From positions 186,001 to 250,000 of the forward strand of contig NZ_BAAAWH010000001.1 in the NCBI RefSeq assembly GCF_039534975.1: 64,000 nucleotides of DNA. Direction: 5' to 3'. The stretch is from Microbacterium terregens (GTDB taxonomy: Bacteria > Actinomycetota > Actinomycetes > Actinomycetales > Microbacteriaceae). The first letter of the stretch is position 1; every line of letters begins with the position of its first letter. Below are positions 5,327-47,270 of the stretch, one piece after another. The notes beneath the pieces are model-generated. The model was not told the DNA's origin and made no database searches. It saw nothing but the letters and a program-made list of their open reading frames with translations. Both the position numbers and the translations under genes were made by a program.

Positions 5327-6445
5327 ATGTCTGTGAACCCCCCGTTCCGCGCCGATATCGTCGGCAGTTTCCTGCGTCCCGAGGCGATCAAGGTCGCACG
5401 TGCGCGTCACGCAGCCGGCGAACTCGACGCCGCGGGCCTCCGCCTCGTCGAGGACGAGGCGATCAGCGCGCTCGTCGCTCGTGAGGCGGCCGCCGGCCTG
5501 AAGGTCGCCACGGATGGCGAATTCCGACGGTCATGGTGGCACTTCGACTTCTTCGGGATGCTGGACGGCGTCAATCTCGTCGAGCTCGATCACGGCATCC
5601 AGTTCCAAGGGGTCCAGACCCGACCGCTCGGGCTGCACATCGACGGGACCGTGGGCTTTCCGAGCGATCACCCGATGATCGAGCACTTCCGCGCACTCAA
5701 GCCGATCGCCGACGCCGCCGGTGTCGTGGCGAAGTTCACCATCCCTGCCCCGACGGTGCTCGACTTCCGCCTCGAGCGCGACGCGCTCGCGGGCTCTTCC
5801 TACGCCGGTCACGACGACATCTTCGAGGACCTGGCCGCGACCTATCGGAGCGCGGTGCAGGCGTTCTACGACGCCGGCTGTCGCTACCTGCAGTTCGACG
5901 ACACCGCGTGGGCCTACCTGTGCTCGGACGTCGAGCTGGCAAAAGCCGCCGAGCGCGGCATCCGCACCGATCATCTGCCCGAGCGCTACGCGGCGCTGGT
6001 CAATGCGTCGCTGCGCGACAAGCCGGCCGACATGGTGATCACGACCCACGTGTGCCGCGGGAACTTCCGCTCGACGTGGATCTCGTCCGGCGGGTACGAG
6101 CCGGTCGCGGAGCAGCTGCTGGGCGAGACCGCCTACGACGGCTACTTCCTGGAATACGACAGTGAACGCGCCGGCGGATTCGAGCCGCTGCGGTTCCTCC
6201 CGAAGGGCGACAAGGTCGTCGAGCTCGGCCTGGTCACCACGAAGTCCGGCGCGCTGGAGAACCCCGACGAGCTGAAGCGCCGCATCGACGAGGCGGCCAC
6301 GATCGTGCCGATCGAGCAGCTGGCGCTGAGCCCGCAGTGCGGCTTCGCCTCGACCGAGGAGGGCAACGTCCTCACCGAGTCCGAGCAGTGGGCCAAGGTC
6401 GAGGAGACGGTCGCGCTGGCGGCCGAGGTGTGGCCCGACGCGTAG
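5327..6445 (+). CDS. MetE-like (cobalamin-independent methionine synthase core) methyltransferase
   Basis: 372 residues, equal to the catalytic half of MetE, like Bacillus YxjG/YxjH. The zinc-type ligands are visible: H241-x-C243 in HVCRGN and C338 in QCGFAS; DFDD-like and TDGE motifs are also present. The family moves methyl groups from folates to thiols; epoxyalkane:coenzyme M transferase is a close relative. Next to a THF-dependent demethylation island it could consume 5-methyl-THF and so regenerate THF, but the methyl donor is not proven. A -10 box TAAAGT lies at 5314-5319, seven bases before the ATG, so the mRNA is probably leaderless. Convergent with the next gene. Confidence 0.75.
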   Translation: MSVNPPFRADIVGSFLRPEAIKVARARHAAGELDAAGLRLVEDEAISALVAREAAAGLKVATDGEFRRSWWHFDFFGMLDGVNLVELDHGIQFQGVQTRPLGLHIDGTVGFPSDHPMIEHFRALKPIADAAGVVAKFTIPAPTVLDFRLERDALAGSSYAGHDDIFEDLAATYRSAVQAFYDAGCRYLQFDDTAWAYLCSDVELAKAAERGIRTDHLPERYAALVNASLRDKPADMVITTHVCRGNFRSTWISSGGYEPVAEQLLGETAYDGYFLEYDSERAGGFEPLRFLPKGDKVVELGLVTTKSGALENPDELKRRIDEAATIVPIEQLALSPQCGFASTEEGNVLTESEQWAKVEETVALAAEVWPDA

Positions 6446-6522: not shown

Positions 6523-7296
6523 TCAGCGACCGGTGCGTCCGGCGACCGCGTGCAGCCACTCGATCGTGCCGTCGGTCATGGGATGCGGCGTATCGAGCGA
6601 CCGCAGGAACTCGCGCGCCGCGATCATCTCGGCTTCTCGCCGCACGGCGTGCTTGGTCGTGCCATCGATGAGGTGATCCACCGCCGTGCGGTCCGGTGCG
6701 CCGAGTTCCGAGGCGATCTGGCCGATCAGCCATTCCTCGGCGCCGAAGATCTCGGCGGCGGTGACGCTCTCGACCACCACCGCGGCCAGTCCCTTCATGA
6801 AGACGCTCCGCAGGAGCTTCAGTCGGGCCGCCGCTCCCGGCTCCGGACCGACCTCGGTCGCCGGAATGCGCAGATCCCGCAGGAAGGGCTGCAGCTGCGC
6901 GACCCCGGGGCCGCTCAGCAGCAGCGGCGTGTCGATGCGGGCGCGCGGCACCGGCGCCATGATCGCCACATCCACGAACGGGATGCCGCGCGCCGCCGCG
7001 ACGGCGGCCAGCTCTCGCTTGTCGGTGGGTCCGCTGGTGTTCATGTCGGCGAAGATGCTGGTGGCACCCATCGCAGGCAGCGCCTCCTCGAGGACGGATG
7101 CCGCGGAACTCGCGCCGACCAGGCTGAGGACGACGTCGGCGCCGCGCACGGCGCGCGGGATGTCGTCCGCCCGGTCGACCCCTGCCGGAGCGGCCGAGAT
7201 GCGCACATCGGTACCGACGACGGATGCACCGCGTGTCGGCAGGTCGGTCGCGTAGATGCTCCCTGCTTCACCCAACCCCAGGACCGCAATGCGCAT
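6523..7296 (-). CDS. NAD(P)-binding dehydrogenase of the 6-phosphogluconate/3-hydroxyisobutyrate type with DUF1932 domain
   Basis: 257 residues. A Rossmann start (VLGLGEAGSIYA, residues 4-15) is followed by the beta-hydroxyacid dehydrogenase pattern and a C-terminal helical DUF1932 region (KLLRSVFMKGLAAVVVE near 160). Such proteins oxidise beta-hydroxy acids; the substrate here is unknown. Start at 7296 has GGGAGG upstream. It is divergent from the GntR gene and shares with it a palindrome at 7329, so it is probably regulated by that protein. Confidence 0.75.
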   Translation of the reverse strand: MRIAVLGLGEAGSIYATDLPTRGASVVGTDVRISAAPAGVDRADDIPRAVRGADVVLSLVGASSAASVLEEALPAMGATSIFADMNTSGPTDKRELAAVAAARGIPFVDVAIMAPVPRARIDTPLLLSGPGVAQLQPFLRDLRIPATEVGPEPGAAARLKLLRSVFMKGLAAVVVESVTAAEIFGAEEWLIGQIASELGAPDRTAVDHLIDGTTKHAVRREAEMIAAREFLRSLDTPHPMTDGTIEWLHAVAGRTGR

Positions 7297-8115: not shown

Positions 8116-9468
8116 TCAGCTCTTGCGGTAGTTCTCCCGGGCGAACGCCGAGTACGGCGCAGGCTGGACGGTCGCCCGCATCGACACCTGACGGTGCTTC
8201 TCGACCGCGGGCTTGTGCGAGTTCGGCTCCTCGCCCCAGATCACCTCGACCTCGGTGCCGGGCGTCGCGTGATCGTTGTCGATGCTCGCGCGCGACACGA
8301 AGGCGTGCTCGTTCGTGATGTAGCCCACGTCATGGGAGATCCCGACGTCCTTCCCGTCGACGAGCACCCGGTCGAGCTGGTGCTGGCCGTAGCGCGCCTT
8401 GGGGAAGTCGATGTACTTGACCGGCAGGCCGGGCTCCAGGAGGGACTGCGCTGCCGATGCGACGTCCTCGGGGTTCCACACCAGCGTCACCTTCTGACGG
8501 TTCTGCGCGGCGGCGTGACGCTCGAGCGCGGCCCGGCCGATGAAGTCGTGGTCGAATGCGACGCTCCGCCCGTAGCCGATGTCGTACGGCGTGATGTAGT
8601 AGTCCTCGATCCGATCCGAGTTCAGGCTCCCGGCGAGCGACCCGGTGCGGGTGACCGGCAGCCACTCGCGGTACGCATCGGTGCCCTCGCCGCTGAAGAT
8701 CGCGGGAAGCGGGGAAGGCACCCAGGCCGACTCGAGGTTCGCGGAAGAATACGCCTTCGACCCGACCAGGACCAGGTCCAGGCCCTCGCCCGCGGCGATG
8801 AGGGCCGCGCGAACGCGTTCGCCATCGGCCCAGGGACCGAACAGCTCGAAGCCCGGCTGCCCCGCCATGCCGTGGCGCAGCGAGCGCACCTCGACACCGT
8901 CGATCGTGAAGGTCGCCATTCCGAAGAACTTCGTCGCCGGCACCTCGGCGCCGGTGACCTTCTCCATCAGAGCCAGCGCGTTCGGGCCCTGCAGCTCGTA
9001 GCGATACAGCTTCGGGTCGCCCTCGCGAACGACCGAGCTGGCGTCGCGTTCGAACGAGACGTCGTAGTCACCGGTCTCGCCGTGGAACTGCACCCAGTCC
9101 AGCACCATGTGCCATCCGACGAGGTCGAACGACTGCTCGGCGAGATAGAACAGGATCGCGTCGCCGATCAGGTAGCCCTCGTGGTTGACCGCGATGAACT
9201 GCTTGGCCTGATCGATCTGGAATTTCGCGAAGCTGTTCACGCCGACATCCGAGAGCAGTCTGAGCGCGTCGGGGCCGGTGATGAACAGATCCGTCATGTG
9301 GTGCGACTGATCCAGCAGCGCGACCGAGGTGCGCCACGACTGCTGCTCGGAGCGCCAGTTGCTGAACTCCGGCGTCACCGGAAAGACGGTGGGGCGGGCC
9401 TGGGCGTTGCGCAGCAGGTCCACGGCACTCCCGGCGCGGGTGATGGCTTGCGCGAGTGACTCGGGCAT
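8116..9468 (-). CDS. LigM/DesA-family tetrahydrofolate-dependent aryl O-demethylase, divergent paralogue 1
   Basis: 450 residues of the GcvT-like fold used by LigM and DesA (SYK-6 type) to move an aromatic methoxy methyl to THF. Family motifs present: LLDQSHHM (about 52-58), QFHGETG, LQGPNAL, LRHGMAGQPGFELFGP, and SKAY with Y240, which matches the catalytic tyrosine region. It differs from the other two copies at likely pocket positions: the VGRAP arginine is W119 here, a YIYPV tyrosine is F29, and SRAY is SKAY. It therefore probably takes a different methoxyaromatic. Start at 9468 has GAAGGAG upstream; the frame is open further but without signal. Divergent from a LysR gene. Confidence 0.82.
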   Translation of the reverse strand: MPESLAQAITRAGSAVDLLRNAQARPTVFPVTPEFSNWRSEQQSWRTSVALLDQSHHMTDLFITGPDALRLLSDVGVNSFAKFQIDQAKQFIAVNHEGYLIGDAILFYLAEQSFDLVGWHMVLDWVQFHGETGDYDVSFERDASSVVREGDPKLYRYELQGPNALALMEKVTGAEVPATKFFGMATFTIDGVEVRSLRHGMAGQPGFELFGPWADGERVRAALIAAGEGLDLVLVGSKAYSSANLESAWVPSPLPAIFSGEGTDAYREWLPVTRTGSLAGSLNSDRIEDYYITPYDIGYGRSVAFDHDFIGRAALERHAAAQNRQKVTLVWNPEDVASAAQSLLEPGLPVKYIDFPKARYGQHQLDRVLVDGKDVGISHDVGYITNEHAFVSRASIDNDHATPGTEVEVIWGEEPNSHKPAVEKHRQVSMRATVQPAPYSAFARENYRKS

Positions 9469-9533
9469 GGAGACTCCTTCGTTCCTTGAGACTCCCATGC
9501 TATGCACCAGGACATATCGGGCCTACGATCTTG

Positions 9534-10633: not shown

Positions 10634-11614
10634 ATGGCCGATACGCTGACCGCGGCATCCGCTCGTCGCAACGCCGCCCACGGCGGCACGCTGGTCGTCA
10701 CCGCCCGCCGCGACGTGGCGCAGGATGTCGTGGAGCTCACGCTCGCCCGACCCGGCGGCGAGCGACTGCCCGACTGGGCGCCGGGCGCGCACATCGACAT
10801 CGTGCTGCCGGATGGCACCACCCGCCAGTACAGCCTGCTCGGCGACCGCTGGGATGCGCACAGCTTCACGATCGCGGTGCTGCGCGAACGCGAAGGGCGC
10901 GGCGGCTCGGAGCACATCCACACGCGCCTCACCGCCGGCGACACGGTCGGCTTCGGCGGCCCGCGCAACAACTTCCGCCTCTCCCCCGCACCGGGATACC
11001 TGTTCGTCGCCGGTGGCATCGGCATCACCCCGCTGATGCCGATGGTCCGCCAGGCCGAGCTCCTGGGCGATCCGTGGCGGCTGCTCTACCTGGGCCGGTC
11101 GCGCGCCCGCCTCGCCTACCTCGACGAACTGGCGCAGTACGGCGAGCGGGTGACCGTCCACGCCGCCGACGAGAGCGGCCGCGCGGTGATCGACGACTGG
11201 ATGCCGGACCCTGCCGTCCCGCCTGTCGTCTACGCCTGCGGGCCGGAGCGCATGCTCGACGCCGTCGACCTGTGGGCCGCTCCGCTGGGGCGCCACCGGG
11301 TCCGCCTGGAACGGTTCACCGCGCGCGGCGATGCCGACCGCCCGGCCACCGTCTTCGAGGTCGAGGTGGCCAGCAGCGGCGCCGTGGTCACCGTGCAGAA
11401 GGACGAGTCCATCGTCGACGCGCTTCGCCGCGTCGACGTGGACGTCATCACCTCGTGCGCCCAGGGAGTCTGCGGCACGTGCGAGACCGGTGTGCTGCGT
11501 GGCGTCCCCGACCACCGCGACGCACTGCTGAGCGAGGCGGAGCGCGCGGAATCCCGCTGCCTGTACCCGTGCATCTCACGGGCGGTCTCGGACCGCCTCG
11601 TACTCGACCTGTGA
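10634..11614 (+). CDS. Phthalate-dioxygenase-reductase/VanB-type flavin [2Fe-2S] oxidoreductase, electron donor to the P450
   Basis: 326 residues in the order flavin domain (RQYSL near 57), NAD domain (GGIGITPLMPM near 118-128) and C-terminal plant-type ferredoxin with the C-x4-C-x2-C spacing in CAQGVCGTC and a last Cys in CLYPC. This layout is that of phthalate dioxygenase reductase and VanB. Start at 10634 follows AAGGAG. The P450 gene starts 28 bases after its stop, so it most probably carries NADH electrons to that P450. The same domain set is fused to P450 in P450RhF-type enzymes; here it is separate. It could also serve a Rieske oxygenase elsewhere. Confidence 0.85.
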   Translation: MADTLTAASARRNAAHGGTLVVTARRDVAQDVVELTLARPGGERLPDWAPGAHIDIVLPDGTTRQYSLLGDRWDAHSFTIAVLREREGRGGSEHIHTRLTAGDTVGFGGPRNNFRLSPAPGYLFVAGGIGITPLMPMVRQAELLGDPWRLLYLGRSRARLAYLDELAQYGERVTVHAADESGRAVIDDWMPDPAVPPVVYACGPERMLDAVDLWAAPLGRHRVRLERFTARGDADRPATVFEVEVASSGAVVTVQKDESIVDALRRVDVDVITSCAQGVCGTCETGVLRGVPDHRDALLSEAERAESRCLYPCISRAVSDRLVLDL

Positions 11615-11642: not shown

Positions 11643-12851
11643 ATGAGCATCGTCGAGTCTCCGACCACGCCGGACGCGGCATCCATCGATCCGTTCGACC
11701 TGGAGTTCCTGCGCGATCCGCTGCCGCACCACGCGGCCCTGCGCGATGCCGGGCCGGTCGTCCGCCTCGAGAAGTACGGCGTGTACGCGATGGCGCGGTA
11801 CGACGAGGTGCACGCCGCCCTCGTGGACTGGCAGTCCTTCCAGTCGGCGGCCGGCGTCGGCCTGTCGAACTTCCGGCACGAGAAGCCGTGGCGTCCGCCG
11901 AGCGTGCTGCTGGAGGCCGACCCGCCGCGCCACGACGGGCCTCGGGCCGTGGTGGCGCCGCTGCTGACCACGCGGCGTCTGCGCGATCTGGAACAGCAAT
12001 GGCGGGCGGATGCCGCGACCGTCGTCGATGCGGTCCTCGACCGCGGCGAGGAATTCGACGCGGTCACGGATCTGGCGGAGGTCTTCCCGTTGCGGGTCTT
12101 CCCGGACGCGGTGGGCATCGGCAAAGAGGGCCGGGAGAACCTGCTCCCCTACGGCGACTTCGCCTTCAACGCGTTCGGCCCCCCGAACGAGCTCGTCACG
12201 AGTGCCGCGCCGCACATGCCGCCCGTGACGGAGTGGATCGGTCGGCAGTGTCTGCGCGAGAACCTCACCGAGGACGGTTTCGGGGCGCAGATCTGGGCCG
12301 CGGCCGATCGTGGCGAGATCTCGCCCGAGCACGCGCCGATGATCGTGCGCTCACTGCTGACGGCCGGAGTCGATACCACCGTGACCGGCATCGCGGCGAT
12401 CGTGCACGCTCTGGCGCACACCCCGGGCGCCGTCGCCCGGCTGCGGCGCGACCGTTCCCTCACGCGGACGGCGTTCGAGGAGGCCGTGCGGCTCACCTCG
12501 CCGGTGCAGACTTTCTTCCGCACCGCGACGCGCGACCTGCAGGTGGGCGGGGTGGACATCGCCGACGGGGAGAAGATCCTGATGTTCCTGGGCTCGGCCA
12601 ACCGCGACCCGCGGCGGTGGGAGGACCCCGACACGTTCGACCTGGACCGGGACCCGTCCGGCCACGTCGCGTTCGGGATGGGCATCCACCAGTGCGTCGG
12701 ACAGCACATCGCCCGCCTCGAGGCGATCTGCGTGCTCGACGCGCTGCTGGACCGCATCGTCGACATCGAACCCGCCGCTCCGGAGCAGCGCCACCTCAAC
12801 AACACCCTCGTCGGCTGGGAGCACATGCCGGTGCGCGTGCACCGCGGCTGA
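11643..12851 (+). CDS. Cytochrome P450, CYP199A-like para-methoxybenzoate O-demethylase
   Basis: 402 residues, soluble class I type P450. Heme ligand is Cys351 in FGMGIHQCVG; the I-helix has AGVDTT (241-246). It strongly resembles CYP199A4 as I recall it: KPWRPPS with R84 and S87, FNAFGPPNEL (F175, F178), IVRSLL (R236, S237), SPVQTFFRT and NNTL near the end, which in CYP199A4 hold the benzoate carboxylate and the ring. CYP199A enzymes remove the para methyl of 4-methoxybenzoate and veratrate as formaldehyde. A similar P450/reductase pair (PbdAB) is known from Rhodococcus. Product would be a 4-hydroxybenzoate, the form LigM enzymes need. It forms an operon with the reductase. Confidence 0.85.
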   Translation: MSIVESPTTPDAASIDPFDLEFLRDPLPHHAALRDAGPVVRLEKYGVYAMARYDEVHAALVDWQSFQSAAGVGLSNFRHEKPWRPPSVLLEADPPRHDGPRAVVAPLLTTRRLRDLEQQWRADAATVVDAVLDRGEEFDAVTDLAEVFPLRVFPDAVGIGKEGRENLLPYGDFAFNAFGPPNELVTSAAPHMPPVTEWIGRQCLRENLTEDGFGAQIWAAADRGEISPEHAPMIVRSLLTAGVDTTVTGIAAIVHALAHTPGAVARLRRDRSLTRTAFEEAVRLTSPVQTFFRTATRDLQVGGVDIADGEKILMFLGSANRDPRRWEDPDTFDLDRDPSGHVAFGMGIHQCVGQHIARLEAICVLDALLDRIVDIEPAAPEQRHLNNTLVGWEHMPVRVHRG

Positions 12852-12911: not shown

Positions 12912-14396
<1,485 letters not shown>

Positions 14397-14539: not shown

Positions 14540-15295
14540 TTGGCTGAGTCAACCCGCACGCTTCTCGTGGTCAGCGCCCACGCCGGCGATTTCGTCTGGC
14601 GTGCCGGCGGTGCGATCGCCGCCGCCACTCTGCGCGGAGAGCGGGCCGTCGTGGTCTGCGTGTCGTATGGAGAGCGCGGCGAGTCGGCCAGCCAGTGGCT
14701 GCAGGGCAAGTCGCTCGATGAGATCAAGGCCATCCGCCGCGAAGAGGCGACAGCCGCGGCATCCGCCCTGGGCGCCGAGATCGAGTTCCTTGATGCCGGC
14801 GACTACCCGTTGCTCGAATCGACCGAGACCGTCGCGAAGCTCGTCGACGTCTTCCGCCGCGTGCAGCCCACCGTGGTGCTGACGCACCCGCTGGCCGATC
14901 CGTACAACGGCGACCACCCGGCGGCCGCGCGCATGGCGCTGGAGGCCCGCGTCCTGGCACAGGCGATCGGTGTGGCCAACTCGGACGGCACCTTCCCCAC
15001 CACCGACGAGATCATCGGCGCACCGCCGGTGTTCTTCTTCGAACCCCACCAGCCCGAGCAGTCGGACTTCAAGCCGAACGTGCTCCTGGACATCACGGCC
15101 GCGTTCCCGATGAAGCAGAAGGCGATGGAGTGCCTGCCCGCCCAGAAGCACATGTGGGAGTACTACACCTCGCTCGCGGTGCGCCGCGGGGTTCAGCTCA
15201 AGCGCAACGCCGGCCCGAACCTGGGGCTGCCGGTGGACACGATGGGCGAGGCGTACGTGCGCTACTACCCCGCGGTCACGGACATCCTCGAATGA
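14540..15295 (+). CDS. galB: 4-oxalomesaconate hydratase, GalB/PIG-L family
   Basis: 251 residues of the PIG-L (LmbE) metal-dependent fold. The motif SAHAGDFVWRAGG (H14, D17) replaces the deacetylase HPDDE, as in Pseudomonas GalB; further ligands H115 and H125 in THPLADPYNGDHP. GalB hydrates the keto form of 4-oxalomesaconate to 4-carboxy-4-hydroxy-2-oxoadipate in gallate and protocatechuate 4,5-cleavage. TTG start at 14540 is chosen for AGGAG five bases before; the frame is open upstream but lacks a signal. galC follows with an ATGA overlap. The neighbours make this reading much more likely than a sugar deacetylase. Confidence 0.85.
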   Translation: MAESTRTLLVVSAHAGDFVWRAGGAIAAATLRGERAVVVCVSYGERGESASQWLQGKSLDEIKAIRREEATAAASALGAEIEFLDAGDYPLLESTETVAKLVDVFRRVQPTVVLTHPLADPYNGDHPAAARMALEARVLAQAIGVANSDGTFPTTDEIIGAPPVFFFEPHQPEQSDFKPNVLLDITAAFPMKQKAMECLPAQKHMWEYYTSLAVRRGVQLKRNAGPNLGLPVDTMGEAYVRYYPAVTDILE

Positions 15296-15996
15296 GCGCC
15301 GATCACGTCGTCGTCACCGACATCGAGCGGGCGGATGCCGCGACCGTCGACGCGCTCGCCGAACTGGGTTCGGCGACCGTCCACGAGGCGATGGGGCGCA
15401 TCGGCTACGTCGGTCCCCGCATCCGTCCCATCCAGCAGGACGTGTCGATCTCGGGCAGCGCCATCACCGTGCTGACCGCCCCGGGCGACAACCTGATGGT
15501 GCACGCCGCGATCGAGCAGGCCCGCGCCGGCGACGTCGTCGTCGTCGTGCCCACGACCGACTCCCCCTTCGGGTTCATCGGCGAGCTCATGGCCACGCAG
15601 ATGCAGGAGCGCGGCGTGCGCGCCTATGTCACCTCCGGCGGTGTGCGCGACACGGGCGAACTGCGCACCATGGGCTTTCCGGTGTGGACCGCGCACATCA
15701 GCTCGGAGGGCACCGTCAAGGACACGGCCGGCTCGGTCAACGTTCCGGTGGTGCTCGGAGGCGTCGTGGTGAACCCGGGCGACATCGTGGTCGCCGACGA
15801 CGACGGCGTGACGATCGTGCCGCGCGCCCGCGCCGCGGCGACCCTCGAAGCCGCCCAGGCGCGTGCCGCGAAAGAGGCGGCCACCCGGCTCCGCTACCAG
15901 GCCGGCGAACTCTCGCTGGACGTCAGTTCGCTGCGCCCGCTCCTCGCCGACCTCGGCGTCCGGTACGTCAGTCAGGCGGAATACGACCGTGACTGA
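15292..15996 (+). CDS. galC: 4-carboxy-4-hydroxy-2-oxoadipate aldolase, GalC/LigK (RraA-like fold)
   Basis: 234 residues, RraA-like. The divalent-metal class II aldolase signature is clear: GGVRDTGEL with R119 and D120 (R123/D124 in the Pseudomonas HMG/CHA aldolase), and GELMA near 98. It cleaves 4-carboxy-4-hydroxy-2-oxoadipate to pyruvate and oxaloacetate. ATGA overlap with galB before it and an 8-base overlap with galD after it show one tightly coupled operon. Confidence 0.9.
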   Translation: MSADHVVVTDIERADAATVDALAELGSATVHEAMGRIGYVGPRIRPIQQDVSISGSAITVLTAPGDNLMVHAAIEQARAGDVVVVVPTTDSPFGFIGELMATQMQERGVRAYVTSGGVRDTGELRTMGFPVWTAHISSEGTVKDTAGSVNVPVVLGGVVVNPGDIVVADDDGVTIVPRARAAATLEAAQARAAKEAATRLRYQAGELSLDVSSLRPLLADLGVRYVSQAEYDRD

Positions 15997-17089
15997 GGAC
16001 GTGCGCGATCCCTCCGGCGACGGCATCCGCTGCATGCTCATGCGCGGAGGCACGTCGAAGGGCGCCTACTTCCTCACCGAGGACCTGCCCGTCGAGCCCG
16101 CGCAGCGGGACAGCCTGCTGCTGCGGATCATGGGCAGCCCCGACCCCACCCAGATCGACGGCCTCGGGGGTGCGCACCCGCTGACCAGCAAGGTCGCCCT
16201 CGTGTCGCGCTCGGCCGAGTCCGGCGTCGACGTCGACTATCTCTTTTTGCAGATCGGTGTCGACCAGGCCACCGTGAGCGACGCGCAGACGTGCGGCAAT
16301 CTGCTGGCCGGCGTCGGCCCGTTCGCCGTCGAGCGCGGACTCGTCGCACCGGGTGACGAGACCACGACGGTGCGCATCCGGCTCGTGAACACCGGCGACC
16401 TCGCCATCGAGACCTTCCTCACGCCGCAGGGCCGCGTCGACTACGACGGCGCCTCGTCCGGCACCGGGACGGCCATCGACGGCGTGCCCGGTACCGCCGC
16501 CGGCATCGAGATCGCCCTCAGTCCCGGCCCCGACGCGCGGCTGCTGCCGTCCGGCAGCGTTTCCGACACGTTCAACGGTCACTCCGTCACGCTCATCGAC
16601 AACGGGATGCCGGTCGTCCTGCTGCGCGCGGACGAATTCGGCGTCGCGGGCACGGAGTCCCCGGCCGAGCTCGAAGAGCGCATCGATCTGAAGGTCGCGC
16701 TCGAGAGCATCCGCCTGCAGGCAGGGCCGGCGATGGGCCTCGGCGATGTGGCGCACGCCACCGTCCCGAAGATGTTCCTGCTCTCGCCCGCGCTCCACGG
16801 CGGCGCGGTCTCGACCCGCGCCTTCATCCCCGCTCGCGTCCACACCTCGATCGGCGTGCTCATGGCCGCGTCCGTGGCCGCCGGCATCCGCATCCCCGGC
16901 GCCGTCGGCGCCGACATCGCGGCGCTGACCGACACCGGTCCCGACCTCATCGAACACCCCGGCGGCACCTTCCCCGCCCGCGTTCAGGTGCAGCTCGGCG
17001 ACGACGGCCAGTGGCACGCCACATCGATTTCCACCCGCACCGCCCGCAAGATCTTCGACGGCGTGGTCTTTCCGCGACCACGCCTGTAA
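15989..17089 (+). CDS. galD: 4-oxalomesaconate tautomerase, GalD/PrpF family
   Basis: 366 residues of the PrpF diaminopimelate-epimerase-like fold, with MRGGTSKGAYF near 13-23, TCGNLLAGVGPFA and a second-half GDVAHATVPK motif. GalD interconverts the enol and keto forms of 4-oxalomesaconate made by gallate ring cleavage. GTG start at 15989 overlaps the galC stop. PrpF-like aconitate isomerases are an alternative in isolation, but galB and galC next to it fix the role. Confidence 0.88.
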   Translation: MTEDVRDPSGDGIRCMLMRGGTSKGAYFLTEDLPVEPAQRDSLLLRIMGSPDPTQIDGLGGAHPLTSKVALVSRSAESGVDVDYLFLQIGVDQATVSDAQTCGNLLAGVGPFAVERGLVAPGDETTTVRIRLVNTGDLAIETFLTPQGRVDYDGASSGTGTAIDGVPGTAAGIEIALSPGPDARLLPSGSVSDTFNGHSVTLIDNGMPVVLLRADEFGVAGTESPAELEERIDLKVALESIRLQAGPAMGLGDVAHATVPKMFLLSPALHGGAVSTRAFIPARVHTSIGVLMAASVAAGIRIPGAVGADIAALTDTGPDLIEHPGGTFPARVQVQLGDDGQWHATSISTRTARKIFDGVVFPRPRL

Positions 17090-17112
17090 CACCCGCCAGA
17101 GAGGACCGCACG

Positions 17113-18075
17113 ATGACCGATTTCACCGCGTTCGACGTCGCCCACATCGGCAGCGTCGAGCTGCTCACACCCAAGTTCGAGGAGAGCAAGGCGTTCTTCA
17201 CCGACCTGCTCGCGATGCGCGTCGTCGCCGAGGAGGGCGACTCCGTCTTCCTGCGCACGTGGGACGAGTACGAGCTGTACACGATCAAGCTCACGGCATC
17301 CGATGCCGCGGGTGTGGGACGCACGACGTTCCGCACATCCAGTGAGGATGCGCTGCAGCGCCGTGTCGCAGCGATCACCGAGACGGGCTTCGGCGGCAGC
17401 TGGGTCGACGGCGAGGTCGGAACGGGCCCCACGTTCGAGTTCACCGACCCCGACGGCCACGCCATGGCGATCTACTACGAGACCGAACGCTATGTCGCGA
17501 CCGATGACAAGCCGGCTCTGAAGAACCAGGCATCGCGCTTCCCGGGCTACGGCGTCAACGCCCGCCGCCTCGACCACATCAACTACCTCGCCAAGGACGT
17601 CGTCGCCAACGGCGAGTTCATCGCCAACGCTCTCGGCGGTCGCGAGAGCGAGCGCATCAAGCTGGATGCCGGCGGCTACGCGGCATGGTGGTTCCACTTC
17701 AACAACAAGTCCTACGACGTGGTCTACTCCGATGACTGGACCCGTCACGGCAACCGCCTGCACCACATCGCCTTCGCGCCCGACACGCGCGAGGACATCC
17801 TCAAGGCCGCCGACATCTTCATCGAGAACGGCATCTACATCGAGTCCGGTCCGCACAAGCACGCGATCAACCAGACCTTCTTCCTGTACGTCTGGGAGCC
17901 CGGCGGCAACCGCATCGAGTTCGCCAACGCCGGCGCGCGCCTGCTGCTGGACCCGGACCAGCCCGTCGTGGAGTGGAGCCAGGAAGAGCGCAAGAAGGGC
18001 CAGGCGTGGGGCATGAAGACGATCGAGAGCTTCCACACGCACGGCACGCCGGTCGTGGACGTCGTCGCAGACTGA
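17113..18075 (+). CDS. Type I (VOC-fold) extradiol ring-cleavage dioxygenase in the gallate operon
   Basis: 320 residues, two vicinal-oxygen-chelate modules like catechol 2,3-dioxygenase. The Fe(II) ligands of the C-terminal module are complete: H155 (RRLDH), H218 (RLHH) and E269 (GNRIEF); H248/H250 and Y259 match the second-sphere His and Tyr of XylE. It is therefore probably active. It lies 23 bases after galD, with AGAGGA before the ATG. Known gallate, 3-O-methylgallate and protocatechuate 4,5-dioxygenases are of the unrelated LigAB type, none of which is in this window; position implies that this enzyme opens gallate, methylgallate or protocatechuate. Exact substrate is inference. Confidence 0.85.
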   Translation: MTDFTAFDVAHIGSVELLTPKFEESKAFFTDLLAMRVVAEEGDSVFLRTWDEYELYTIKLTASDAAGVGRTTFRTSSEDALQRRVAAITETGFGGSWVDGEVGTGPTFEFTDPDGHAMAIYYETERYVATDDKPALKNQASRFPGYGVNARRLDHINYLAKDVVANGEFIANALGGRESERIKLDAGGYAAWWFHFNNKSYDVVYSDDWTRHGNRLHHIAFAPDTREDILKAADIFIENGIYIESGPHKHAINQTFFLYVWEPGGNRIEFANAGARLLLDPDQPVVEWSQEERKKGQAWGMKTIESFHTHGTPVVDVVAD

Positions 18076-18218
18076 ACCTTTCCCGCGCCGGCGCCCGGCT
18101 CATGGGACGTTCCCGCCCCCGCTGAGCGAATCAGTGGTGGAATGAACAGAGATCGGGCGCTGCGCTGGGCAGGGCCCTCGGCAACAATCTGAGCAACAAC
18201 GCACAGAGGGGTGTGGAC

Positions 18219-19745
18219 ATGACGGACACGATAGGCGCGGACTCCGCGACCGCGGTCACCGGCGAGGCCGGCACGGAAATCAGGACACGGCTGTACATCG
18301 GCGGCCAAGAGCGGCACACCGCCGCGACCCTGGATGTCGCTGACCCGGGCAAACCGGGCGTGATCGTCGGCCGCGCGGCCTCCGCCACTCCGCAGGACGT
18401 CGACGACGCCGTCGCCGCGGCGAAGGCCGCCTATCCGGCGTGGTCAGCCCTCTCGGCCCTCGAGCGCGCCGAGCAGATGCGCGCGGCGCTGGAAGGGATC
18501 GCCGAGGCACGGGATGCCGATGCTGCGATCCTGTCGCAGGAGAACGGCAAGGTCCGCTTCGAGGCCTGGGTCGACTCCCTGGTCTTCGAGATCCGGTGGA
18601 ACCTCGCGTTGATGCTCGCCGACGAGGTCGACACGGGCAAGGTCCTGCCCGTGGTTCCCGGCATCCCGGTCGAGACCTCCGTCTCGTACCAGTCGCTGGG
18701 CGTGGTGACCCTGATCGTGCCCTTCAACTGGCCGATCGCGATCCTCGGCGCCGCACTCCCGCACGCGCTGCTGGCCGGTAACACCGCGATCGTCAAGCCG
18801 CCGCCCTCGACGCCGCTGGCGCTCACCCGGGTCGTGCAGCGGATCGCCGAGAAGCTTCCCGCCGGCGTGCTGAACGTGGTCACCGGCAAGGACGAGAACA
18901 TGTCCGGCCTGATCTCCAACACCGACGTCGCGAAGGTGTGCTTCACCGGCAGCGTCAACGGCGGCAAGCGCATCATGGAGATGGCATCGAAGTCGCTCAC
19001 CCGGGTGACGCTCGAGCTGGGCGGGAATGACGCGGCGGTGTTCCTCGAGGACGCGATCCTCGACGACACCCACCTGGACCGCATCTACGCCGCCGTGTTC
19101 GACACGACGGGTCAGATCTGCATGAACGCCAAGCGGCTGTACGTGCACCGCTCGCGCATCGATGAGCTCGTCGAGGGCCTGTCGGCACGGCTGGACAAGG
19201 CCGTGATCGGGTACGGGCTGGACGAGGGCACCACGATGGGGCCGCTGCACCAGAGCGCGCAGAAGGCGTTCGTGGAGGACATCATCCAGGAGGCGAAGGA
19301 TGCCGGCGCCGACGTGCGCGAGTTCGGCGAGCTCCCCGGTGGGGACCTTGCCGGCGGGAACTTCCTGCGCCCGGCGATCGTCGTCGACCCGGACCCCGCG
19401 CTGCGCGTGGTCACCCAGGAGCAGTTCGGTCCGGTCATCCCGATCCTCCCCTTCGACACCGAGGACGAGGCGATCGCCGCGGCCAACGACACGTGGGCGG
19501 GGCTTTGCGGCTCGGTCTGGACGGCCGACGTCGACGCCGCCAACCGTGTCGGCGGCCAGCTCGCCTGCGGCTACGTGTGGGTCAATGACCACGGCGCGAC
19601 GCGACTGGACCTGCGGGCGCCGTTCGGCGGCATGAAGCAGTCCGGGTTCGGGCGCGAGCAGGGCATCGAGGGCATCCGTGCCTTCCAGGACACCCGCTCC
19701 ATCGCCCACATCGACGCTGAAGCCCTCGCGGCGCAGGCGCACTGA
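18219..19745 (+). CDS. Aldehyde dehydrogenase, copy 1 (probable aromatic aldehyde)
   Basis: 508 residues of the NAD(P)-dependent ALDH superfamily. Visible: PFNWPIAILGAALPHALLAGN (cofactor side, residues about 167-187), LELGGND with the general-base Glu, and GQICMNAKR with the nucleophilic Cys. Start at 18219 has GAGGGG seven bases before. It follows the gallate operon by 143 bases without a clear promoter. It is nearly the same protein as copy 2 at 41718. In this island vanillin or syringaldehyde oxidation to the acid is the likely task; substrate is inference. Confidence 0.83.
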   Translation: MTDTIGADSATAVTGEAGTEIRTRLYIGGQERHTAATLDVADPGKPGVIVGRAASATPQDVDDAVAAAKAAYPAWSALSALERAEQMRAALEGIAEARDADAAILSQENGKVRFEAWVDSLVFEIRWNLALMLADEVDTGKVLPVVPGIPVETSVSYQSLGVVTLIVPFNWPIAILGAALPHALLAGNTAIVKPPPSTPLALTRVVQRIAEKLPAGVLNVVTGKDENMSGLISNTDVAKVCFTGSVNGGKRIMEMASKSLTRVTLELGGNDAAVFLEDAILDDTHLDRIYAAVFDTTGQICMNAKRLYVHRSRIDELVEGLSARLDKAVIGYGLDEGTTMGPLHQSAQKAFVEDIIQEAKDAGADVREFGELPGGDLAGGNFLRPAIVVDPDPALRVVTQEQFGPVIPILPFDTEDEAIAAANDTWAGLCGSVWTADVDAANRVGGQLACGYVWVNDHGATRLDLRAPFGGMKQSGFGREQGIEGIRAFQDTRSIAHIDAEALAAQAH

Positions 19746-21809: not shown

Positions 21810-21840
21810 GATTGACAATCTCAATGAACTCGACTTCAAT
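21810..21840 (+). promoter_or_regulatory. Promoter and overlapping palindrome of the side-chain operon
   Basis: TTGACA at 21812-21817 and TTCAAT at 21835-21840 are 17 bases apart. The -35 lies inside the inverted repeat GATTG-A-CAATC (21810-21820), a good site for MarR repression. Confidence 0.55.
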
Positions 21841-44015: not shown

Positions 44016-44894
44016 GTGTCAAAGACCACGCATGTGACCGCGAACCGTGAGGCAGCGCTTCAGCTGGTGAACGGCTACTCCCTGGAGATGACCGGCAAGG
44101 ATGTGCCGGGCCTCATCGAGGCGAAGGACGCGATCCCCGCCGGCACCAAGATCAACGTGACCTTCCTCGGCAACGAGGACCTGGAGATGCGCATTGCGGC
44201 GTCCAAGGCTGTCCGGGAACTCGGCTTCATCCCCGTCCCCCACATCTCCGCGCGGCGCCTGGCCTCGCGCGCTCAGCTCGAGGAGTTCCTCGATCGCCTG
44301 CAGGATGTCGGCGCGACCGAGCACGTCTTCGTCGTCGGTGGCGACCCGGCCACGCCGGAGGGCCCGTACGAGGACTCCTACGACGTGATCCGCACGGGCC
44401 TGCTGCGCGACTACGGCGTCAAGGAGGTCTCCATCGCCGGCTACCCCGAGGGGCACCCGGACATCAAGGAAGACGTCCTCTGGCGCGCACTGGAGGACAA
44501 GTCCCTCTCCCTCAAGCAGCAGGGACTGGACGCGACCATCCTCACCCAGTTCGCTTTCGACACCGACCCGGTGATCGCCTGGGTCGAAGCAGTCCGCGCC
44601 CGCGGCATCGAGAGCACCATCCGCATCGGCACGCCCGGACCCGCCGGCATCAAGCGTCTGATCGGGTTCGCCCGCCGCTTCGGCGTCGGCGCGAACGCGA
44701 TGATCGTGAAGAAGTACGGTTTCTCGCTGACCAACCTGATGGGCACCGCAGGTCCGGACAAGTTCGTCACCGACCTGTCCGCGCTGCTGGCCGAGGACCC
44801 GGCTTCGGGCGACGTCAAGCTGCACTTCTACACGTTCGGCGGCCTGCTGGCGACCGCCGACTGGGCCCGCGGCTACGCCGCCGCCCAGTCCTGA
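44016..44894 (+). CDS. metF: Methylenetetrahydrofolate reductase-like protein (MetF family)
   Basis: 292 residues, TIM-barrel flavoprotein of MetF size. The catalytic Glu is E24 in YSLEMTGKD; VGGDPATPEGPY and IAGYPEGHPD are the usual folate and flavin motifs. GTG start with GAAAGGACC upstream. In SYK-6, metF sits beside ligM and oxidises the 5-methyl-THF made by demethylation to 5,10-methylene-THF; the same role fits here. It may also serve methionine synthesis, but the operon argues for catabolism. Confidence 0.85.
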   Translation: MSKTTHVTANREAALQLVNGYSLEMTGKDVPGLIEAKDAIPAGTKINVTFLGNEDLEMRIAASKAVRELGFIPVPHISARRLASRAQLEEFLDRLQDVGATEHVFVVGGDPATPEGPYEDSYDVIRTGLLRDYGVKEVSIAGYPEGHPDIKEDVLWRALEDKSLSLKQQGLDATILTQFAFDTDPVIAWVEAVRARGIESTIRIGTPGPAGIKRLIGFARRFGVGANAMIVKKYGFSLTNLMGTAGPDKFVTDLSALLAEDPASGDVKLHFYTFGGLLATADWARGYAAAQS

Positions 44895-44921: not shown

Positions 44922-45794
44922 ATGACTCTGCAGAATGAATCACTGCGCGATCACGCCTGCCTGATCGTGCACGGCCCGGACAAGCCGGGCATCGTCGCGG
45001 CGGTGACGGCGCTGATCACCCGCAACAAGGGCAATATCGTCACGTTGGACCAGTACTCCGACGACGCGAACGGCGGCGCGTTCTTCCAGCGCGTCGTCTT
45101 CCACCGTCCCGACCTGAGCGCAGCGATGCCCGACATCGAGGCGGACCTGGCCGACACGGTCACCGCGCTGGGCCTGGAGTGGACCCTGACGGACCAGTCC
45201 GTGCCCAAGCGGATGGCGATCCTCGCCTCCACCTCGGACCACTGCCTGCTCGAGCTGCTCTGGCGGCACCGCCGCGGTGAACTGCCGGTCACCATCCCGA
45301 TGGTGATCTCCAACCACACCAACGTCGCCGCGGACGTCCGCTCGTTCGGCATCCCGTTCTTCCACGTCCCCTCCCAGGGACCGGACAAGTCCGAGGCCGA
45401 AGCGAAGATCCTGGAGCTGCTGAAGGGCAACGTCGACTTCATCGTCCTCGCCCGCTACATGCAGATCATCTCGGAGGACTTCCTCGACAGCGTCGGGGTT
45501 CCGGTGATCAACATCCACCACTCGTTCCTGCCCGCCTTCATCGGCGCCGCTCCCTACCGCAAGGCCAAGGAGCGCGGCGTGAAGCTGATCGGTGCGACCT
45601 CGCACTACGTCACGAAGGACCTGGACGAGGGGCCGATCATCGAGCAGGACGTTGCCCGCGTGGACCACGCCCACTCGGCCGCCGACCTCCAGGCCCGCGG
45701 GGCCTATGTCGAACGCGCCGTGCTCTCCCGTGCCGTGCAGTGGCACGCCCAAGACCGCGTCATCCGACACGGCAACCAGACCATCGTCTTCTGA
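44922..45794 (+). CDS. purU: Formyltetrahydrofolate deformylase
   Basis: 290 residues: N-terminal ACT domain (about 10-90) and a formyltransferase-type domain with N197, H199 and D235 (NIHHSFLPAF, LDEGPI), the PurU catalytic set. It hydrolyses 10-formyl-THF to formate and THF. GAGGAG before the ATG. Between metF and ligM it would close the THF cycle and drain methyl carbon as formate; the SYK-6 system uses LigH (formyl-THF synthetase) instead, so this is a different exit without ATP gain. Confidence 0.9.
   Translation: MTLQNESLRDHACLIVHGPDKPGIVAAVTALITRNKGNIVTLDQYSDDANGGAFFQRVVFHRPDLSAAMPDIEADLADTVTALGLEWTLTDQSVPKRMAILASTSDHCLLELLWRHRRGELPVTIPMVISNHTNVAADVRSFGIPFFHVPSQGPDKSEAEAKILELLKGNVDFIVLARYMQIISEDFLDSVGVPVINIHHSFLPAFIGAAPYRKAKERGVKLIGATSHYVTKDLDEGPIIEQDVARVDHAHSAADLQARGAYVERAVLSRAVQWHAQDRVIRHGNQTIVF

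Positions 45795-47270
<1,476 letters not shown>

Follow-up and report, generated by a model that had tools for sequence, protein, structure and literature searches.

A vicinal-oxygen-chelate extradiol dioxygenase encoded with galB, galC and galD in Microbacterium terregens is a likely type I gallate dioxygenase

The window analysed here, a stretch of 64,000 nucleotides from Microbacterium terregens (contig NZ_BAAAWH010000001.1, positions 186,001 to 250,000 of the forward strand), contains four co-oriented genes. Three encode homologues of the 4-oxalomesaconate (OMA) hydratase GalB, the 4-carboxy-4-hydroxy-2-oxoadipate (CHA) aldolase GalC and the OMA tautomerase GalD, and the fourth a type I extradiol dioxygenase of the vicinal oxygen chelate (VOC) fold, which we propose to be a gallate dioxygenase (Table 1). 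The trio of tautomerase, hydratase and aldolase by which we recognise a gal operon is present. The galB and galC genes overlap by 4 nt and galC and galD by 8 nt, and the dioxygenase gene follows after a gap of 23 nt, coordinates that confirm the close coupling reported in the preliminary description of this DNA. GalC scored above the NF006731 cut-off, yet below that of TIGR02798 (273.5 vs 304.5). GalD was accepted as a tautomerase on its best match in the Protein Data Bank (PDB), the (4E)-oxalomesaconate Delta-isomerase 6p3j.

The dioxygenase was assigned to the VOC (glyoxalase/dioxygenase) fold by profile PF00903, which matched above its cut-off. It resembles catechol 2,3-dioxygenases (C23O), with scores under the equivalog cut-offs for both C23O (TIGR03211, 297.4 vs 320.2) and homoprotocatechuate 2,3-dioxygenase (HPCD, or HpaD; TIGR02295, 178.4 vs 321.4), and a profile scan of the protein gave no match to the LigB domain PF02900. 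An AlphaFold model (predicted local distance difference test, pLDDT, 85.7; predicted template modelling score 0.88) was submitted to Foldseek, which returned structures of AphC, C23O and HPCD; the 50 matches listed include no entry of the LigAB type. The metal ligands named beforehand, H155, H218 and E269, are all present and align with those of HPCD. The stretch comprising R293, Q297 and T303 is unreliably placed in the model because residues 298–300 have pLDDT values under 50.

Among the listed Foldseek matches, the nearest fold was that of AphC from Rhodococcus jostii RHA1 (3lm4, 7q2a), an alkylcatechol 2,3-dioxygenase with 35% identity (E 2.5e-37, template modelling score 0.87). AphC (3lm4) has the same metal triad but carries His at position 201, where the M. 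terregens enzyme has Tyr, and lacks R293 and Q297. HPCD likewise shares the type I fold and the metal triad and acts on a carboxylated catechol, so a type I fold with such a substrate is not new in itself. However, its His200, which we take to be a second-sphere catalytic residue, corresponds to the family Tyr, and its R243 and R293, presumably the carboxylate anchors, align with S/T/Y/F245 and G296. Within the M. terregens genome, relatives of the dioxygenase at E ≤ 1e-3 were 30–34% identical and comprised one HpaD above its cut-off and two C23O-like proteins below theirs. The latter two (loci L096 and L097; L and G numbers designate loci and genomes) lie in near-duplicate neighbourhoods with similar flanking open reading frames (ORFs), and both have His at the position of Tyr201.

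GalA of Pseudomonas putida is a gallate dioxygenase of the LigAB type. The reaction proposed here, gallate to OMA, and the partners GalB, GalC and GalD are common to GalA and to DesB of Sphingobium SYK-6, as far as the accessible text of the sources goes (PMC9942251, PMC12314914), and DesB is described as a type II extradiol enzyme in the part of PMC3962378 available to us. In an E. coli biosensor for gallic acid, galA is required and GalR responds to OMA (PMC9942251). The present enzyme differs in being of type I, and it is encoded in a genome without a LigB domain. The preliminary description had noted that the window lacks a LigAB-type enzyme and had named a homologue elsewhere in the genome as a finding that could overturn its reading. 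A PF02900 search of the whole genome (3.57 Mb, 99.55% complete) gave no match, while 4 of 14 control genomes were positive. The absence from the window therefore extends to the entire genome, and we rule out a LigAB-type enzyme elsewhere in it as the gallate dioxygenase.

The association between the dioxygenase and the gal genes was examined across 398 Microbacteriaceae genomes, 61 of which had an OMA tautomerase match (above the cut-off in 40). LigB and VOC searches used 58 of these 61, with G012, G078 and G112 omitted for holding fragmentary matches only. A VOC match at E ≤ 1e-40 was found in 25 of the 58; in 21 it was 55–100% identical and directly adjoined galD, and in the other four it was 32–42% identical. 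At E ≤ 1e-90, the full set of 398 genomes yielded 22 matches, namely the same 21 beside galD and one in G200, whose 47%-identical homologue does not lie next to galD and whose genome has no OMA tautomerase match. An OMA tautomerase match is therefore present in 21 of 22 VOC genomes versus 61 of 398 overall, with a Fisher p of 5e-18 that is merely indicative because the genomes are related. PF02900 occurred somewhere in 26 of the 58 genomes; in 17 it shared a contig with galD at a distance of at most about 4 kb, and none of these 17 had a VOC match at E ≤ 1e-90. A VOC gene beside galD (21/58) and a LigB gene near galD (17/58) are hence mutually exclusive, and no genome has both. Outside the window, all 20 Microbacteriaceae neighbourhoods examined have galC and galD, 17 have galB (undetected in L073, L074 and L075) and none has LigB.

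Beyond the family, a profile search of genome contigs gave at least 588 VOC relatives, of which the best 80 were taken with flanks of up to 8 kb; shares among these 80 are not population estimates. GalC and GalD were each found at 57 of the 80 loci, GalB at 44 and LigB at none. Plasmid records matching at E ≤ 1e-60 numbered 67, and among the 14 inspected, GalC was near the VOC gene in 12, GalD in nine and GalB in nine. In the combined set of 114 related loci (20 Microbacteriaceae, 80 genome and 14 plasmid loci), 82 have a gal gene on the same strand no more than 200 nt from the VOC gene. The order galB-galC-galD-VOC prevails in most actinobacterial loci, whereas galB-VOC-galC-galD is found in Agrobacterium, Thioclava and Rhizobium and VOC-galB-galC-galD in Roseibium. 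About 6 kb separate the VOC gene from galD in Pantoea piersonii. The link is conserved across bacterial phyla; the pairing recurs in Actinomycetota and Alphaproteobacteria. Several orders exist, which rules out a link bound to a single order or phylum, and the recurrence across Microbacteriaceae and the other loci rules out chance adjacency.

The family is further marked by characteristic residues. When 116 family rows, PDB entry 9wgj among them, were aligned with 14 outgroup rows, position 201 (the counterpart of HPCD His200) was Tyr in 116/116 family rows and His in 14/14 outgroups. H155 and E269 are present in 116/116 family rows and H218 in 115/116, and R293, Q297 and T303 are fixed in the 115 rows that cover them. 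The more distant homologue of G200 has His at 201 and lacks R293, Q297 and T303; its neighbours are genes resembling aldehyde dehydrogenases (ALDH) and ABC transporters, and the 17 kb fetched around it contain no gal gene. A quick tree was computed after omission of 23 of the 130 rows, 13 of them truncated, frameshifted or from short contigs and 10 near-identical Bradyrhizobium rows. In it, the Tyr201 family forms one clade (support 97*), which fits a single origin for the subfamily, and 77 of its 93 tree rows have galC and galD nearby; the placement of 9wgj, Thermus and the long outgroup branches is unsure. Of note, entry titles indicate that the PDB holds many engineered H200 variants of HPCD.

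These features bear on the possibility that the protein is an ordinary catechol or alkylcatechol 2,3-dioxygenase carried along in the cluster while another, unrecognised enzyme opens gallate. The C23O-like fold and sequence would suit such an enzyme, many database records bear the name "catechol 2,3-dioxygenase", and gal genes are missing from the vicinity of some family loci. Nevertheless, the adjacency is conserved in differing gene orders across phyla, the own genome lacks LigB, and the protein departs from canonical C23O and HpaD enzymes in both equivalog score and second-sphere His, the latter through a fixed exchange to Tyr that is accompanied by the family-specific R293, Q297 and T303. 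We consider this explanation very improbable.

As to the substrate, a tannase gene (PF07519) is part of the VOC locus in five of the 114 cases from two phyla, namely a pAt plasmid of a walnut Agrobacterium, two Microbacterium and two Arthrobacter, and this linkage indicates gallate. The product is indicated by a second type of hydratase. A LigJ-like gene replaces an undetected galB in 11 of the best 80 loci and lies between galD and galC in Kocuria (L117) and Arthrobacter globiformis (L129), both of which were read gene by gene. The best PDB matches of the L129 protein are the 4-oxalomesaconate hydratases 2gwg and 6dxq, and the same locus encodes a 2-pyrone-4,6-dicarboxylate hydrolase (PDB match 4d8l). 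Because the unrelated OMA hydratases GalB and LigJ thus occur behind the same ring-opening enzyme, OMA is indicated as its product.

OMA would also arise if the enzyme were a type I protocatechuate 4,5-dioxygenase and the adjacent ALDH oxidised the semialdehyde to 4-carboxy-2-hydroxymuconate, the enol of OMA, bypassing LigC and LigI. Indeed, the gene immediately after the VOC gene encodes an ALDH in the window and in relatives L099, L101, L102 and L110, and LigM, as its family name implies, also yields protocatechuate from vanillate. Yet ALDH (at least 60% identity) occurs in only 8 of the 114 loci, and the signature of protocatechuate 4,5-cleavage is scarce near the VOC gene, with LigC at 0/114 loci (the LigC query being a gene named by reading) and LigI at 5/114. 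In the M. terregens genome, a search for LigI that had no positive control gave no match. PcaH, the beta subunit of protocatechuate 3,4-dioxygenase (TIGR02422, 336 bits, cut-off 296.4), is encoded roughly 1.5 kb upstream of the window, beside a second, weak PF00775 match. The genome further encodes a PobA-type hydroxylase (NF006091, 490 bits, cut-off 351) and a PcaF-resembling thiolase under its cut-off. Protocatechuate is therefore probably ortho-cleaved in this organism, which makes it an unlikely substrate of the VOC dioxygenase as judged from the PcaH gene so close to the window. With the tannase linkage also pointing to gallate, we regard protocatechuate 4,5-cleavage as improbable.

Another alternative is that the physiological substrate is 3-O-methylgallate, which would be opened to OMA monomethyl ester or 2-pyrone-4,6-dicarboxylate, with LigM on a side branch. 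DesA-like and LigM-like demethylases are encoded nearby, and a LigI-like pyrone hydrolase gene is near the VOC gene in five of the best 80 loci. Those five are, however, the only ones among the 114; LigM, which takes off the last methyl group, is encoded beside the operon; and tannase-linked loci provide gallate rather than 3-O-methylgallate. Moreover, although a LigM-like gene (at least 60% identity) is near the VOC gene in 42 of the 114 loci, the other 72 lack one. Overall, 3-O-methylgallate seems distinctly improbable as the substrate.

A type I gallate dioxygenase is thus our preferred assignment. The genome-wide absence of LigB, the conserved link between VOC and galBCD genes and their exclusivity with LigB make non-orthologous replacement of the ring-opening step, as suggested at the outset, the best reading of the sequences. 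We consider it likely that the VOC enzyme is a hitherto unrecognised gallate dioxygenase that yields OMA and that galB-galC-galD-VOC would constitute a complete gallate pathway. The genes and their couplings, the fold, the metal ligands, their conservation and linkage and the lack of LigB are read from the sequence itself; the substrate, the regiochemistry, the flux from syringate and the part played by Tyr201 are inferred and would be as follows. The enzyme would be an Fe(II)- (or Mn(II)-) dependent type I extradiol dioxygenase, in which the vicinal hydroxyls of gallate chelate the 2-His-1-Glu metal site and the C4–C5 bond is cleaved. As C5 of gallate bears the third hydroxyl, the product would be the tricarboxylate OMA and not a semialdehyde. 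That hydroxyl and Tyr201 might take over the proton handling of the usual second-sphere His. GalD would then isomerise OMA, GalB would hydrate it to CHA, and GalC would cut the latter into pyruvate and oxaloacetate, a route from OMA that is given as established for P. putida in the accessible portions of PMC12314914 and PMC9942251. Gallate would be supplied here from syringate and 3-O-methylgallate by the neighbouring folate-dependent O-demethylases and, in other bacteria, also from tannins by tannase.

Several observations weigh against this assignment. At the locus itself, GalD falls about 10 bits short of its NF033377 cut-off, the demethylase proposed for syringate stays under the DesA cut-off, and an ALDH gene after the dioxygenase gene resembles the arrangement of ordinary semialdehyde-forming meta pathways. 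LigB is not always absent from genomes with the VOC gene, as it occurs elsewhere in 4 of the 21 Microbacteriaceae VOC genomes (G036, G044, G199 and G234) and, of 49 named genomes searched, 31 contain it. A LigB-like gene is near the VOC gene in one of the 114 loci, that of Roseomonas gilardii plasmid pRo-1 (L181), where a gene for a class III extradiol dioxygenase is located two genes upstream of the VOC gene. Plasmid loci of Chimaeribacter and Pantoea At-9b have no gal gene within 6-kb flanks. Finally, 9wgj, a Tyr201 subfamily member (356.6 bits) with the R293/Q297 motif that branches first inside the family in the quick tree, carries the depositor label "Catechol 1,2-dioxygenase", so that some other substrate may already have been recorded.

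Further exceptions came from 17 genomes that have the VOC gene but lack local galBCD partly or wholly. CHA aldolase was above its cut-off in 15 and OMA tautomerase in seven, which speaks for the assignment, as do the LigJ-LigK clusters described below. The tautomerase gave no match in eight, comprising 6 of 12 Bradyrhizobium genomes and those of L126 and L128, and only a weak one in the genome of L103 (226.9 bits vs cut-off 440), which likewise counts against the proposal. Among the 12 Bradyrhizobium genomes, the tautomerase was above the cut-off in five, weaker in one and absent from six, CHA aldolase was above the cut-off in all 12, and LigJ at E ≤ 1e-30 was found in none. The Actinomycetota loci without galC and galD (L103, L126 and L128, from Sinomonas and Microbacterium) all have a LigJ-LigK-LigI-LigAB cluster elsewhere in the genome. 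These clusters (L202, L203 and L204) are of the 4,5-protocatechuate type, with a LigC-like gene, named by reading, next to LigAB in L202 and L203. The VOC gene of L126 (8001–8933), in which H218 is replaced by Arg, is a further point on the negative side and looks like a decaying copy. At L144 and L147, with galB and galC at the locus, galD is found elsewhere on the same contig. On Thermus oshimai plasmid pTHEOS01 (L190), an imperfect fit, a VOC member is accompanied by PIG-L (galB) and CHA aldolase (galC) genes with no tautomerase near, and a gene annotated as 4-hydroxybenzoate 3-monooxygenase lies close by.

The converse case, also unfavourable, is that of the gal-like clusters L084–L088 and L090, which encode GalB and GalD, with GalC in four of the six (undetected in L085 and L087), and at which neither a VOC family member nor a nearby LigB was found; in the L088 genome, LigB is on another contig. 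L084 and L090 were viewed gene by gene, the latter from an ORF list filtered by GC content. These six clusters possibly serve to take up a tricarboxylate that is not aromatic and is fed into the OMA route. Since they have galBCD-like genes without VOC or nearby LigB, galBCD alone is no proof of gallate use, and we rejected it as a stand-alone criterion. The clusters also carry genes for a DUF1932 dehydrogenase and for ABC-transporter-like proteins.

The surroundings of the operon (Table 1) include two LigM-type O-demethylase genes, the first of them divergent from galB, and genes with plausible roles in one-carbon recycling. A cytochrome P450 gene, which has counterparts close to the VOC gene in L066, L068, L113 and L116, lies with that of its likely reductase partner; the P450/reductase pair and the ALDH were rejected as core parts, both being sporadic across the loci. 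The DUF1932 dehydrogenase (at least 35% identity) is encoded near 14 of the 20 Microbacteriaceae clusters, 27 of the best 80 and 3 of the 14 plasmid loci. Between positions 21812 and 26889, reading of the ORFs indicated SDR-like (short-chain dehydrogenase/reductase), amidohydrolase, SBP-type (substrate-binding protein) lipoprotein and acyl-CoA-ligase-like products, the amidohydrolase alone having been profile-scanned, and this set suggests a module for hydroxycinnamate side chains that supplies the O-demethylases.

Table 1. Genes of the gal operon and neighbouring features, with coordinates in the window.
Feature	Position	Strand	Evidence and remarks
galB-like OMA hydratase, PIG-L fold	14540..15295	+	TTG start; best PDB match 5cgz, E 2.5e-74
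galC-like CHA aldolase, RraA/LigK family	15292..15996	+	NF006731 297.8 bits (cut-off 179); 3noj, E 1.8e-73
galD-like OMA tautomerase, PrpF fold	15989..17089	+	GTG start; NF033377 429.7 bits (cut-off 440); 6p3j, E 2.3e-102
Type I (VOC) extradiol dioxygenase, 320 aa, proposed gallate dioxygenase	17113..18075	+	H155, H218, E269; Tyr201 replacing second-sphere His
LigM-type tetrahydrofolate-dependent vanillate/3-O-methylgallate O-demethylase	12912..14375	-	NF047885 930.8 bits (cut-off 580); 5tl4, E 2.4e-217
DesA/LigM-like O-demethylase, probable syringate step	8116..9471	-	DesA NF047633 585.7 bits (cut-off 800)
Second LigM-type O-demethylase	45804..47270	+	NF047885 875.6 bits (cut-off 580)
Formyltetrahydrofolate deformylase PurU, putative one-carbon recycling	44922..45794	+	TIGR00655 352.5 bits (cut-off 285.95)
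MetF-like methylenetetrahydrofolate reductase, putative one-carbon recycling	44016..44894	+	PF02219 36.5 bits (cut-off 24)
Cobalamin-independent methionine-synthase-like protein, possible methyl acceptor step	5327..6445	+	NF005085 549 bits (cut-off 313)
Aldehyde dehydrogenase after dioxygenase, accessory	18213..19745	+	At least 60% identity in only 8/114 related loci
Cytochrome P450, possible aromatic O-demethylase	11643..12851	+	Also near VOC gene at four related loci
FAD/2Fe-2S reductase, likely P450 partner	10634..11614	+	Profile scan
NAD-binding DUF1932 dehydrogenase, 6-phosphogluconate-dehydrogenase-like	6523..7296	-	Recurrent in these clusters

With regard to novelty, no type I gallate dioxygenase was found in the literature searched, in which name searches on catechol or protocatechuate 2,3-dioxygenase are partly blind, and none appears in the accessible parts of PMC8671467, PMC12311729, PMC12314914, PMC9942251, PMC8431788, PMC12455638 and PMC6486533. 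The ring-opening enzymes named in the text available from a 2025 paper are LigAB, LigA2B2, DesZ, DesB and GalA (PMC12314914). A precedent for extradiol cleavage of a benzoate is PraA, the protocatechuate 2,3-dioxygenase of Paenibacillus JJ-1b, which catalyses 2,3-cleavage and feeds another lower pathway according to the part of PMC12455638 consulted. The structure 9wgj was not among the 50 Foldseek matches listed (structure set to 2026-04-08), and no paper was found under that code. Independent discovery is conceivable, as the structure of a family member exists without a paper found. PraA, like the present enzyme, is of type I.

More broadly, we lean towards the view that a subfamily of type I extradiol dioxygenases independently evolved gallate opening in Actinomycetota, Alpha- and Gammaproteobacteria and possibly Deinococcota. 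The fixed His-to-Tyr exchange would be its hallmark, enabled by the third hydroxyl of gallate handling the proton chemistry, and the subfamily would be common in soil and plant bacteria that degrade tannins or syringyl lignin, hidden in databases as "catechol 2,3-dioxygenase". It offers a natural experiment on the extradiol mechanism, in which the second-sphere His is fixed as Tyr and a different substrate class is proposed. If the assignment is true, a large set of genes that now often carry the name catechol 2,3-dioxygenase would receive a corrected function, and lignin valorisation would gain a single-polypeptide alternative to GalA, DesB and LigAB. The assignment would also account for the use of gallate from tannins and syringyl lignin by actinobacteria that lack LigAB and by some plant-associated proteobacteria.

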